Positions 4,994 to 15,757 of a stretch of DNA of 35,421 bases are shown here, piece by piece (position 1 is the first letter of the stretch; every line of letters starts with the position of its first letter). The position numbers were made by a program, and so were the translations under genes. Source of the DNA: an uncultured Lachnospiraceae bacterium (GTDB lineage: Bacteria > Bacillota > Clostridia > Lachnospirales > Lachnospiraceae). The notes under the pieces are model-generated. The model was given only the letters and a program-made list of their open reading frames with translations. It made no database searches and was not told the DNA's origin. The stretch is taken from positions 1-35,421 of the forward strand of contig CACWQH010000033.1 in assembly GCA_902762955.1 (NCBI GenBank). Direction: 5' to 3'.

Positions 4994-5063
4994 GGCGCCA
5001 TGGCCGCTGGTAGGGCATAAGCTTGCAAAGCTGAAGTTGGCGGTTCGAATCCGTCTGGTGCCG
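4994..5063 (+). tRNA. tRNA-Cys(GCA)-like gene with aberrant identity positions
   Basis: A cloverleaf folds from 4994: acceptor GGCGCCA with TGGTGCC (one G-U pair), D arm GCC/GGC, an anticodon loop TTGCAAA with GCA at 5025-5027, a T arm with loop TTCGAAT, and a 4-base variable loop. The closest standard tRNA is tRNA-Cys. Several features are abnormal: the base after the acceptor stem (position 73) is G, whereas tRNA-Cys normally carries U73, a main determinant for CysRS; the D loop is one base short and lacks the conserved A14; the second anticodon-stem pair is A-G; and no CCA is encoded. It sits 28 bases before the nifB start codon, in the same direction and just after cysK. It could be a functional minor tRNA, a decayed copy or a tRNA-like regulatory leader. 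Confidence 0.72.
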
Positions 5064-5090
5064 TTTATAAAAAAGAAAGCAGGTGAGGTT

Positions 5091-5963
5091 ATGAGCAATA
5101 CCTACAAGGATTTGCAAAATTCACATCCTTGTTTTGGAGGACATAAGAATAATGTTGGAAGAATTCATCTTCCTGTCAGTCCGGGTTGTAATATAGCCTG
5201 TACATTTTGTGATAGACAGATAAATGACGTGGAAGAGCGTCCCGGGGTTACCTCTAAGGTGCTTAAGCCAAAGGAAAGTCTGGACATTTTAAAGAAGGCG
5301 CTTGCCCTTTGTCCGGAGATTACGGTTGCCGGTATAGCCGGACCGGGAGATACTCTTGCGACAGACAACGCCCTTGAAACCTTTAAGCTTATTAAGGAAG
5401 AATTTCCGGAGCTTATAAAGTGTATGAGCACAAACGGACTTTTGTTATATGAGAGGGCAGATGACATACTCAAGGTTGGTATAGATTCTCTTACGGTAAC
5501 CGTAAATGCGGTTGATCCCGAGATAGAAGCAAAGCTTAATAAATACATCATATATCACGGCAAGGTGATAGAGGGTGCAGAGGGAGCAAGGATACTGATA
5601 GAAAATCAGCTCAAAGGAATTAAAAAGCTTGCGGATGCGGGAATGACCATAAAGATTAATACAGTACTTGTTCCGGATATAAACGGAGACCATATAGAAG
5701 AGATAGCAAAAACGGTAGCCGAGGCAGGTGCAAGTATTTATAACATTATTCCTCTTATACCTCAGGCAGAGCTTAAAAATGAAAGAGCTCCTGTTTGCAG
5801 GGAGATTGATGAAGCGAGAACAAAAGCATCCCAGTATATAGATGTATTCAGACACTGTCAGCACTGTCGTGCCGATGCGGTGGGAGTACCCGGAAAGTCC
5901 GAATTCGGTGACCGGATATACCAAAGAAGAATAGCTGTAAAGGAAACATTTTCACATGGATAA
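5091..5963 (+). CDS. nifB: NifB: radical SAM enzyme for the nitrogenase cofactor core
   Basis: NifB fuses two 4Fe-4S clusters and inserts carbide to make the 8Fe precursor (NifB-co) of nitrogenase cofactors. This 290-residue protein has the full pattern: HPCF at 12-15, the radical SAM motif CNIACTFC (Cys33, 37, 40), GIAGPGD, STNGL, TVTVNAVDP, a GAxILIExQLxGIK-like stretch, and the C-terminal HCQHCRADAVG (Cys256, Cys259). The C-terminal NifX-like domain of many NifB proteins is missing and is encoded instead by the next gene, which overlaps by 8 bases. The open frame extends upstream across the tRNA-like gene; the start at 5091 is set by the AGGTGAGG site and homology. Its presence implies that a NifB-co-type cluster is made for the NifD/K-like proteins downstream. 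Confidence 0.93.
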   Translation: MSNTYKDLQNSHPCFGGHKNNVGRIHLPVSPGCNIACTFCDRQINDVEERPGVTSKVLKPKESLDILKKALALCPEITVAGIAGPGDTLATDNALETFKLIKEEFPELIKCMSTNGLLLYERADDILKVGIDSLTVTVNAVDPEIEAKLNKYIIYHGKVIEGAEGARILIENQLKGIKKLADAGMTIKINTVLVPDINGDHIEEIAKTVAEAGASIYNIIPLIPQAELKNERAPVCREIDEARTKASQYIDVFRHCQHCRADAVGVPGKSEFGDRIYQRRIAVKETFSHG

Positions 5964-6315
5964 ATATAAATATCTTGTAGCAGTTGCTTCTTCAGACGAA
6001 ATAGTTGTTAATACGCATTTCGGAAAAGCGGATACATTTCTTATATATGGGATTTTAGAAGACAGAAGCTTTGAGTACATAGAAAGAAGAGCTCTTAAGC
6101 CGGTATGTGAGGGCGGCGATCATGATGAAGGAAGGCTTATTGAAAATGCGCAAAGCCTGAAGGATTGCGCATATGTACTGGTGAGCCGGATAGGCCCAAG
6201 GGCAGTAAATATACTTGAAGCAAACGGTATAACGGCGATGGAGATACCGGATATCATAGAGAATGCATTAAATAAGATTATTTCATATGATGAAATTCAA
6301 AGGTTATTTGATTAA
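5956..6315 (+). CDS. Small NifX/NifB-C-terminal family cluster-binding protein (copy 1)
   Basis: A 119-residue protein of the dinitrogenase iron-molybdenum cofactor family (NifX, NafY, NifB C-terminus), which bind and carry NifB-co or cofactor intermediates. The typical start is visible (VAVASSDEIVVNTHFGKADTF, where HFGKA is the family mark), followed by CEGGDHDE near 50-57 and a Rossmann-like remainder. Its start codon lies 8 bases inside nifB, so the two are translationally coupled and together equal one full-length two-domain NifB. A role as cofactor carrier is inferred. Confidence 0.88.
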   Translation: MDKYKYLVAVASSDEIVVNTHFGKADTFLIYGILEDRSFEYIERRALKPVCEGGDHDEGRLIENAQSLKDCAYVLVSRIGPRAVNILEANGITAMEIPDIIENALNKIISYDEIQRLFD

Positions 6316-6418
6316 ATTTTATTTAAAAAGATTGCTTTAACAAACGGATGGATGATTTCCTTTTGTCTGTAAGGCATTTTATAAAAATTATATTTATAAG
6401 CAGAAAGGACATAAAAAA

Positions 6419-13800: not shown

Positions 13801-13814
13801 GGGAGGAAAAATCT

Positions 13815-15104
13815 ATGTCTCAAATATTGGAAAATCCACGCGGTGGCTGCGTGCTGGCGGGCGTAAACTCTGTTCTTGCGGCAATTGACAGAGTATGTCC
13901 TATATTTCATTCGGGACCGGGCTGCTGTATGCAGACATCGGCGGCAGAGCAGGGACAGTCAGGTCATAAATCATCCTGCTTTGTAAGCAGTGTTTCAATT
14001 CCATCAAGCAATATGCTTGAAAAGGAGGTTGTGTTCGGAGGTCTGGATAAACTAAGAACCACTATCCAGGGTTCAGTTGATATAATAGATGCTGATGCAT
14101 ATTTTGTTTTAACAGGCTGTACCGCAGGTATAATAGGTGATGATATAGCCAGTGTAACAGAGGAATTTCAGGCTAAGGGAGCAAGTGTATATCCTATAGA
14201 CACTCCGGGCTTTGCCGGAGACAGCAACCTCGGATATGAGGTTGTATGGAATACCATGATAGACCAGGTAATAGAGGAAAATGTGCCGCGTGACGACAAG
14301 CTTGTCAATATATTTGGCATAGTTCCTTATCATGATCCTTTCTGGAGCGGAAGCCTTGAGGAAATCGACAGGATACTTTCCAAGCTTGGACTTAAGGTCA
14401 ATACATTTTTTACAAAGCACCAAAATATCGAGGATGTACGTAAATGTTCCGGTGCAGCGCTTAATATAATTATAAATCCATGGTTATTTAAGGGGCCGGC
14501 GAAGAAATTTGAAGAAAAGTTCGGCGTACCGTCCATAAGAATTGCAGGTAATCCTATCGGTGCAACCGATACTACTGCCTTTGTGCTTAAGGTTGCGGAG
14601 GCGCTTAAGCTTGATAAAGCGCTTGTAGATAAGGTGATTGACGAGGAAGAGGATTATGTGTATAGTTATCTTGGTCAGTCGATAGGTGTACTCAGCTGGA
14701 AGCGTTTTGCCGTTGTGGCAGATGCAACCAATGCCATAGGTATAACCAGATACCTTGCCAACGATTACAGCTTTACACCTGTTCTTGTGGTTATATCCGA
14801 GCCTATCTATCGTGAAGAAGATAAGCAAAGAATCATAGATATGATAACCAATCTTGAGTATGCAAGACCGCCTAAGGTGGTATTTACCGCTGACCAGTTT
14901 GAGATAAATGATACAATCTTAAGTGAAGAGGAGGATATCACGCTCTTAATCGGCAGTACCAATGAAAAAGAAGTCGGACTTGAAAAGGGAATCCAGTTTA
15001 TAACCGCAGCCTTCCCTATGAACGAAAGACTTGTGTTTAATCGTACATATACCGGTTATCGAGGAAGTTTGACCTTTACAGAGGATTTGTATGATAACTT
15101 ATAA
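13815..15104 (+). CDS. NifK-like nitrogenase component 1 beta subunit (pair 2)
   Basis: A 429-residue beta-like subunit with all three P-cluster ligands: Cys12 (RGGCVLAG), Cys37 in HSGPGCC, and Cys102 (LTGCTAGIIGDD). The protein begins directly at the P-cluster domain, without the NifK N-terminal arm. A GGGAGG ribosome site follows the stop codon of the alpha-like gene. It resembles the beta subunit of pair 1 along its whole length, so the two pairs arose by duplication or are ancient paralogues like NifDK and NifEN. Confidence 0.88.
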   Translation: MSQILENPRGGCVLAGVNSVLAAIDRVCPIFHSGPGCCMQTSAAEQGQSGHKSSCFVSSVSIPSSNMLEKEVVFGGLDKLRTTIQGSVDIIDADAYFVLTGCTAGIIGDDIASVTEEFQAKGASVYPIDTPGFAGDSNLGYEVVWNTMIDQVIEENVPRDDKLVNIFGIVPYHDPFWSGSLEEIDRILSKLGLKVNTFFTKHQNIEDVRKCSGAALNIIINPWLFKGPAKKFEEKFGVPSIRIAGNPIGATDTTAFVLKVAEALKLDKALVDKVIDEEEDYVYSYLGQSIGVLSWKRFAVVADATNAIGITRYLANDYSFTPVLVVISEPIYREEDKQRIIDMITNLEYARPPKVVFTADQFEINDTILSEEEDITLLIGSTNEKEVGLEKGIQFITAAFPMNERLVFNRTYTGYRGSLTFTEDLYDNL

Positions 15105-15169
15105 TGATCCGGAGATAACGATGTTTTAAGTCGGGCATGTCTCTGGAAAAATGATAAAGGAGAAAAATC

Positions 15170-15757
15170 ATGCAGGCTAATATTACAAGAGTCGAGGCAT
15201 TTGAATTACTAAAAAAGTACAACAAGGATCCGTTTCATATAAGGCACGCCCTTACTGTAGAGGGAGTTATGAAATGGTTTGCGAAAGAGGAAGGCTATGG
15301 TGAAGACGAAGAATACTGGGGCATAGTCGGACTTTTACATGATATAGATTTTGAGGAATATCCTGAGGAACACTGTATAAAGGCACCTGAACTTTTACGA
15401 GAGGCAGGTGTAAGCGAGGATGTAATTCACGGAGTGTGCAGCCATGGATATGAGCTTACGGTTGATGTTAAGCCTGAACATGATATGGAAAAAACTCTTT
15501 ACGCAACGGATGAGCTTACCGGTCTTATATGGGCAGCGGCTCTTATCAGACCATCAAAAAGTGTTCAGGATATGGAGGTAAAATCCGTTAAGAAGAAATA
15601 TAAGAGTGCCAACTTTGCAGCAGGCTGTTCCAGAGAGGTTATTGAACGTGGAGCCGACATGATGGGGATTGAACTTTCGGAGCTTATCCAAAAGACGATA
15701 CTTGCCATGCGAAGCTGTGAGGAAAACGTTAATGAAGTAATGAAGGAATATGAGTGA
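15170..15757 (+). CDS. HD-domain hydrolase
   Basis: A 195-residue HD-superfamily metal-dependent phosphohydrolase. Expected metal ligands are His26 (PFHIRHA), His57-Asp58 (LLHDID), His87, His92 (CSHGYE) and Asp113 (ATDELTG). It resembles widespread small HDIG-type proteins annotated as hydrolases with unknown substrate. It is the last gene of the nitrogenase-like island, 65 bases after the second beta-like subunit, with an AAAGGAG ribosome site, and is probably cotranscribed. A nucleotide or cofactor-repair role is only a guess. Confidence 0.8.
   Translation: MQANITRVEAFELLKKYNKDPFHIRHALTVEGVMKWFAKEEGYGEDEEYWGIVGLLHDIDFEEYPEEHCIKAPELLREAGVSEDVIHGVCSHGYELTVDVKPEHDMEKTLYATDELTGLIWAAALIRPSKSVQDMEVKSVKKKYKSANFAAGCSREVIERGADMMGIELSELIQKTILAMRSCEENVNEVMKEYE

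Follow-up and report, generated by a model that had tools for sequence, protein, structure and literature searches.

A rumen Lachnospiraceae gene cluster that probably serves two nitrogenase relatives in freeing sulfur from organic compounds

A contig of 35,421 nucleotides from an uncultured Lachnospiraceae bacterium (GenBank assembly GCA_902762955.1, contig CACWQH010000033.1; "the window" below means this whole stretch) carries a cluster of nitrogenase-like genes at 5091-15104, all on the + strand and downstream of a cysteine synthase gene and a tRNA-Cys gene, in which two pairs of NifD/K-like subunits, D1K1 and D2K2, are accompanied by NifB-, NifX- and NifH-type proteins. We conclude that this rumen bacterium probably has one gene cluster for two nitrogenase relatives that free sulfur from organic compounds rather than fixing nitrogen. 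In the reading that we favor and consider reasonably likely, the cluster encodes two separate P-cluster reductases with a common cofactor and electron supply: D1K1, a C-S reductase of the methylthio-alkane reductase (Mar) type, and D2K2, a distinct organosulfur reductase. More tentatively, D2K2 may represent an undescribed third catalytic use of the NifB-derived [Fe8S9C] cluster, namely a separate organosulfur reductase that anchors the cluster by a Cys and a His placed as in nitrogenase, belongs to a sulfur-scavenging lineage outside Nif and Mar, has Cys180 and Phe184 replacing Gln191 and His195, and has been transferred among rumen Lachnospiraceae, Oscillospiraceae and Treponema.

The cluster was singled out by an original prediction made from the sequence alone, and the NifB, NifX, NifH and D/K genes named there are all present as open reading frames (ORFs) with profile matches. 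The proposal that reductases of the Mar kind, with a NifB-derived cofactor, acquire sulfur and that cysteine synthase captures it is supported here; the "full EN-like set" had to be given up, because D2K2 lies outside the NifE and NifN clades, has six P-cluster cysteines, occurs without D1K1 and can replace it.

The first pair and the Mar lineage

In searches against all PDB sequences, the best match of D1 (8367-9830, + strand) was R. rubrum MarD (317 bits, against 124 for the next family) and that of K1 (9830-11128, +) was MarK (391 bits, against 87). The P-cluster cysteines are C52/C77/C143 in D1 and C12/C36/C95 in K1, and D1 residues W180, F184, C255, H360, R411 and H412 correspond to MarD W195, F199, C270, H375, R428 and H429 (numbering after PMC12552129, which describes Arg428-His429 as a possible hallmark of Mar). 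MarD C66, C91, C158, W195, F199, C270, H375, R428 and H429 are all kept in 20/20 full-length D1-type rows, the window included; these rows differ from MarD in having Ile for H194 and Gly or Ser for C73. The alignment left out D or K ORFs of 300 amino acids or fewer as fragments, including D1 fragments in two loci (L056, L095) and a D2 fragment in another (L079), and its P-cluster columns hold Cys in 46/46 D and 48/48 K rows.

In the D tree (53 rows after removal of 15 near-duplicates, without an NfaDK reference row), D1-type proteins, MarD and eight other Arg-His-bearing rows join at 100/100; within this group the D1-type rows form their own clade (100/100), sister to the MarD-containing clade (99/97) and not within the R. 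rubrum clade. The K tree, from which the rows of 13 loci were removed, agrees, with K1-type proteins joining MarK at 94/90. Neither pair falls within the Nif clades in either tree, the placement that the original prediction had named as speaking against it. Bch and Cfb were judged by profile and PDB scores: all NCBIfam scores were below cut-off (K1 scored best with BchB, at 104 of 490 bits), and PDB scores were far below those for Mar.

The trees and ligand residues thus support the placement of D1K1 in the Mar lineage as a separate sister subfamily. With R. rubrum MarBHDK (PDB 9FMG, 9D9U), which belongs to group IV-C according to the Heliophilum work (PMC9147875), D1K1 shares the clade, the P-cluster cysteines, Cys270, the Arg428-His429 loop, Trp195, Phe199 and His375, and the likeness extends to a NifB-type protein and a sulfur setting. 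The two systems differ in that D1 belongs to its own sister clade with the substitutions at His194 and Cys73, and in that the window cluster adds NifX1, NifX2, CysK2 and a second D/K pair. The reductase also differs: the cluster's own (6419-7261, +) lies nearer to true NifH (best match 1cp2, C. pasteurianum NifH, 477.6 bits) than to MarH (9fmg_D, 288.6 bits), and we therefore call D1K1 Mar-lineage rather than MarBHDK.

The second pair, its predicted ligands and its independence

D2 (12358-13800, +) and K2 (13815-15104, +) also gave their highest PDB scores with MarD (244 bits; next family 132) and MarK (234 bits; next 93), and their P-cluster cysteines are C49/C74/C142 and C12/C37/C102, so that both pairs carry three per subunit, as had been claimed. 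All 11 D2-type rows keep the P-cluster cysteines and the C270 equivalent, and none has the R428-H429 loop, Trp195 or His375 by which Mar is recognized: the W195 column holds Cys in ten rows and His in a 46% homologue (L062), and the H375 column holds Thr in ten and Tyr in L062. D2-type proteins share a conserved motif, PTTH[VI]LD(G/M)KRPT, the His of which is H424 in the window and stands in the NifD His442 column. That column holds His in 16/16 D2-type rows and in 0/27 D1, other Mar and third-class rows (the third class is introduced below), and two phmmer alignments to NifD chains put H424 at His442 as well, in low-scoring second segments (8.1 and 5.3 bits). By alignment, C260 and H424 are probably the cofactor ligands of D2.

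In the D tree the D2-type rows form one clade (16 rows, 100/99) far from NifD and NifE, and in the K tree the K2-type rows form their own clade (15 rows, 95/98); neither subunit enters the NifE or NifN clades, which were represented by five NifE and three NifN rows, all from Lachnospiraceae. A Foldseek comparison of the AlphaFold model of D2 with the PDB, informative for the fold only, gave 2.1e-28 for Mar and 3.7e-20 for the best NifD. By these sequence comparisons D2K2 is neither NifEN nor Mar, and we found no description of a D2-type pair in the titles and abstract openings of the open-access literature. Dos Santos 2012 (PMC3464626) reports nitrogenase-like genes with Cys275 in association with those for cysteine synthase and O-acetylhomoserine sulfhydrylase; those pairs share with ours Cys275, the P-cluster cysteines, sulfur genes alongside and, in some genomes, several D/K pairs. 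The link to cysteine synthase was therefore overstated as new in the original prediction, and of the distinct system claimed there, D2K2 is the unusual part: the 2012 paper reports that none of the nitrogenase-like genes analyzed had His442, whereas D2 has His in that column.

Both pairs share with NifDK and NifEN the fold and Cys275 and with NifDK the P-cluster cysteines, and D2 has in addition the His in the His442 column; D2 alone of the two alpha subunits combines the Cys275 and His442 equivalents (C260, H424). This combination might suggest a heterometal-free nitrogenase like NfaHDK of Endomicrobium (group IV-A), which resembles D2K2 by description only: PMC9147875 reports that NfaDK is predicted to possess the full set of cofactor ligands and that its host fixes N2 without NifEN. 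We regard this as very improbable. Gln191 and His195, essential for N2 reduction according to PMC12552129, are Cys180 and Phe184 in D2; D1, K1, D2 and K2 are the sole nitrogenase-type proteins in the host genome at E<=1e-15, leaving no NifE or NifN; no match to NifV rose above the cut-off there, the best being LeuA; and the neighboring genes are sulfur genes. The clades, too, are separate from those of NifDK and NifEN.

If D2K2 were a maturase for D1K1, it should be absent where D1K1 is absent. We searched 50 genomes with D2, picked by choice rather than at random from 80 loci, and found a D1-type gene at no less than 69% identity in 42 and none in eight. Six of the eight are metagenome-assembled genomes (MAGs) whose completeness is not stated; the other two are the isolate C6A11 and a complete Anaerocolumna genome. 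In C6A11 a genome search found no D1, and the locus holds C-S lyases, an amino-acid ATP-binding cassette (ABC) transporter, D2, K2, nifB and nifH. In Anaerocolumna sp. AGMB13025 the match to D1 is limited to its first 74 and its last 85 residues (L224:11390-11793), and this remnant lies beside a K1 with an early-ending frame; D2, K2 and nifB remain. Conversely, 22 of the 299 genomes in a sample of the family carry a D1-type gene (partial in G151 and G221), and ten of these showed no D2. A genome with a 46% D2 relative (G161) has nifB, nifH and nifX genes of its own and no D1-type gene, and in another (G047, whose contig is shared with the Falcatimonas sp. MSJ-15 locus L178; L059) D2K2 fills the slot of D1K1 in the order cysK1-nifB-nifX1-nifH-cysK2, with D1K1 on a different contig (L092). 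Each pair can thus be dispensed with by the other, given NifB and NifH, and the occurrence of either pair alone, together with the slot replacement, makes D2K2 most likely a second reductase rather than a maturase. As a separate observation, three Butyrivibrio loci (L157, L158, L161) have D2K2 on its own: nothing within 10 kb on either side matched nifB or nifH, and D1-type genes lie elsewhere in the genome.

A scaffold role, in which D2K2 would act like NifEN by finishing or storing the cofactor for D1K1, draws on the linkage of the two pairs in the window, on a C-terminal loop in D2 that resembles NifE as well as NifD, and on the suggestion of scaffolding for four-gene arrays in PMC3464626. 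We consider it improbable, given the clade positions, the six P-cluster cysteines, the separate occurrence of the pairs and the retention of D2K2 beside a decayed D1 in Anaerocolumna. Moreover, PMC12552129 reports that active R. rubrum Mar was obtained by means of MarB, H, D and K in a strain of R. capsulatus disrupted in nifD and anfHDGK, although further maturation genes of the strain may have contributed.

Several points weigh against the two-reductase reading. All 12 genomes with a D2-type gene in the family sample (a fragment in G268) also hold D1; this co-occurrence would be explained by dependence on shared NifB and NifH and equally by an accessory role. The H424 column is likewise occupied by His in the five NifE rows, so H424 alone cannot separate a catalyst from a maturase. 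The D2 clade is only weakly sister to Mar plus D1 (87/73), and the tree program warns that long branches of the D1 group and of the remaining rows come together, so that joins of this kind may be false. The AlphaFold model of D2 is only fair, with a predicted local distance difference test (pLDDT) score of 70 that falls below 50 at 173-183 and 424-429, the segments flanking the putative active site. Absences in the host genome (2.65 Mb in 81 contigs, of which the window is C33) are soft, since it is 88.94% complete. Finally, the genes and ligand residues are observed, and the flow between them is drawn from the ligands and the Mar structure.

Shared components, sulfur context and a proposed route

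The radical S-adenosylmethionine protein encoded at 5091-5963 (+) is of the NifB type but has no NifX tail; it contains CxxxCxxC, AGPGD and HCQHCRADAVG, which we take to be the NifB motifs, and its TIGR01290 score (264.3 bits) is under the cut-off (343.65). That model runs on into a NifX-like tail, which is matched by the next protein, NifX1 (5956-6315, +; PF02579, 68.4 bits). NifX2 (11290-11733, +; PF02579, 49.5 bits), the other of the two NifX-type carriers foreseen originally, has a Gly/Cys-rich insert of variable length and sequence among 65 homologues, with a mostly conserved DCRxVxCKKIG motif; the 45 homologues listed have five to ten cysteines each, and NifX2 may serve in cluster binding or metal storage. 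The NifH-type reductase carries Cys97, Arg100 and Cys132, as had been stated, and is the sole strong NifH match in the host genome; the NifH tree is poorly resolved, with 13/23 inner branches open. One NifH would thus appear to serve both D1K1 and D2K2.

Both claimed cysteine synthases were confirmed: CysK1 (3980-4918, +) exceeds the cut-off for cysteine synthase A (TIGR01139, 450 against 350.95 bits), and CysK2 (7297-8286, +), a divergent paralogue that also matches PDB cysteine synthases, falls just below its own (TIGR01136, 337.8 against 344.15). CysE was found in the host genome, and MetY is encoded elsewhere in it (561.6 bits, cut-off 495.1). The two predicted C-S lyases fared unequally, the PatB family enzyme (2538-3716, +; TIGR04350, 441.9 bits) passing its cut-off of 340 and the cystathionine gamma-lyase/beta-lyase type pyridoxal phosphate enzyme (MccB/MetC-like; 1304-2464, +) remaining below cut-offs (NCBIfam best PRK07671, 453 against 594 bits; PF01053, 476 bits). 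The Rrf2 regulator (11862-12284, +) is above the cut-off of TIGR00738 and has CymR as its best match, in keeping with the CymR-like label given to it, but under the CymR cut-off (NF047409, 137.3 against 195 bits). In B. subtilis, CymR pairs with CysK. A second regulator (181-1221, +), which had no NCBIfam match at E<=1e-60, is presumably of the LysR type, judging from its sequence; its paralogue at 20346-21257 has the Pfam match, and its homologues adjoin several D1 cassettes. Judging from their families, the CymR-like and LysR proteins would regulate in response to cysteine.

Clues to the substrate are weak and come from transporters. Amino-acid (cystine-type) ABC genes recur, and the window itself has an amino-acid type ABC transporter (SBP_bac_3, permease and ATPase by Pfam) with an amidohydrolase at 16212-20118 (+); one genome (G160) has homologues of this segment, the amidohydrolase included, on both sides of D1K1 (L094), and it is possible that the transporter takes up the substrate. 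In 16/81 loci D2 has an SsuABC/TauABC-like transporter no more than 8 kb away, compared with 0/15 D1 loci without D2, counts from which eight duplicate loci were left out and in which many contigs are short. It would fit a release of sulfite from sulfonates such as isethionate or taurine by D2K2, after the manner of the isethionate reductase IsrBHDK, a nitrogenase-like system that likewise scavenges sulfur. This seems unlikely to us, even though the associated permease is SsuC-like and the ATPase matches SsuB best, below cut-off. The signal is weak because 3/13 other nitrogenase-like loci also have such a transporter (anywhere in the stretch), and the transporter, taken at one time as a strong substrate clue, was dropped as such once duplicates were excluded. 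Sulfite reductase (PF01077) was not found in the host genome. In IsrD, according to PMC11423573, the Cys275 equivalent is missing and so are two P-cluster cysteines, one being kept, and IsrB is nearest to BciD rather than NifB-like; the pairs and the NifB of the window do not fit this description.

For the two-reductase reading, the following route can be proposed. NifB would build the carbide-containing iron-sulfur precursor that leads to the [Fe8S9C] cluster, NifX1 and NifX2 would carry the cluster precursor, and the single NifH would drive electrons, in an ATP-dependent manner, through the P-cluster to the cluster. D1K1 would hold the cluster by Cys255 and His412, the counterparts of the Cys270 and His429 that anchor [Fe8S9C] in R. 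rubrum MarD. By analogy with Mar, it would cleave a methylthio- or similar compound and so yield a thiol. D2K2 would probably hold the cluster by Cys260 and His424 and carry out similar chemistry on another organosulfur substrate, in a pocket to which Cys180 and Phe184 contribute. A thiol or sulfide is the expected product because no sulfite reductase was found, and homocitrate is not expected because all NifV matches were below cut-off. Thiol or sulfide would then be fixed by CysK1 or CysK2, using O-acetylserine from CysE, or by MetY; the C-S lyases and amino-acid transporters would broaden the sulfur supply, and the LysR and CymR-like regulators may turn the cluster on under cysteine shortage.

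Locus features, distribution and significance

The original prediction had the region begin at 4994, which is the start not of nifB but of tRNA-Cys (gca; 4994-5063, +; ARAGORN and Rfam), 27 bases 5' of nifB; an ORF opening at 4950 reads through the tRNA, and the nifB ATG is at 5091. A tRNA-Cys lies near nifB in 16/55 loci with NifB (two pairs of the 16 being the same record), in 0/65 loci without NifB and in 0/12 cysK loci of family members showing no cluster. Beyond K2 follow an HD-domain protein (15170-15757, +; PF01966, 22.9 bits, cut-off 22), present in 13/80 D2 loci (the best 80 of 509 matches), and a long palindrome at 15761-16065 with arms at 15761-15799/16027-16065 and 15797-15844/15985-16032, 90% complementary. 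Its core of about 140 bases gave 44 match rows genome-wide, two being the query and its own reverse and the other 42 ranging from 97% down to 69% identity; the repeat is an intergenic element like a miniature inverted-repeat transposable element (MITE) or an enterobacterial repetitive intergenic consensus (ERIC) sequence.

The neighborhood survey that had been suggested shows the order cysK1-nifB-nifX1-nifH-cysK2-D1-K1-nifX2 again in other genera, in maps where nifB is an unnamed ORF of about 290 amino acids assigned to NifB by a later search; the cluster is therefore not a chance assembly. A rumen or gut origin, as first supposed, is borne out by a rumen MAG, RUG14549 (uncultured Lachnospiraceae), which has a locus 100% identical to the window in D2, NifH and K1. 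A genome placed in the host's genus (G180) has neither pair, so that the distribution is patchy. A scan of GTDB genomes with D2 gave 509 confirmed matches, the best 80 of which come from rumen and gut Lachnospiraceae and Oscillospiraceae, Butyrivibrio hungatei, Eubacterium ruminantium, E. uniforme, Ruminiclostridium hungatei, Lacrimispora algidixylanolytica and Clostridium aminobutyricum, and include 11 loci of Treponema or other spirochaetes at 84-86% identity; one Treponema row inside the Bacillota D2 clade of the D tree points to transfer between phyla. In a phylum-wide search with a D2 profile, 14/398 genomes, the host's included, matched at E 1e-60 or better, and the D2 motif was present in 0/24 loci read from that search (one being the window's D1); six of these have the His one residue earlier and a loop-I His without Arg, and a Mar-like one (L195) has the Arg with Ala for His.

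A third class of pairs was also seen in Lachnospiraceae (L063, L064, L065, L066:12566-13969, L072, L075), with a loop-I His, no Arg and Tyr for Phe199, and with a divergent NifH (about 50%) in three loci; these are possibly group IV-A.

It has been argued that His ligands arose independently in nitrogenase and in Mar, on different loops (PMC13031127), and the conserved His of D2 at the nitrogenase column, in a non-Nif lineage near Mar, makes this idea testable with a single structure. Because the cluster's NifH exceeds the NCBIfam nifH cut-off (TIGR01287, 463.8 against 394.35 bits), nifH surveys of gut and rumen may count sulfur scavengers as diazotrophs. D2 occurs in many MAGs from the rumen as well as in several isolates, so that enzymes of this kind could form a large, unassigned sink of organic sulfur in animal guts, and perhaps also a source of small hydrocarbons there.

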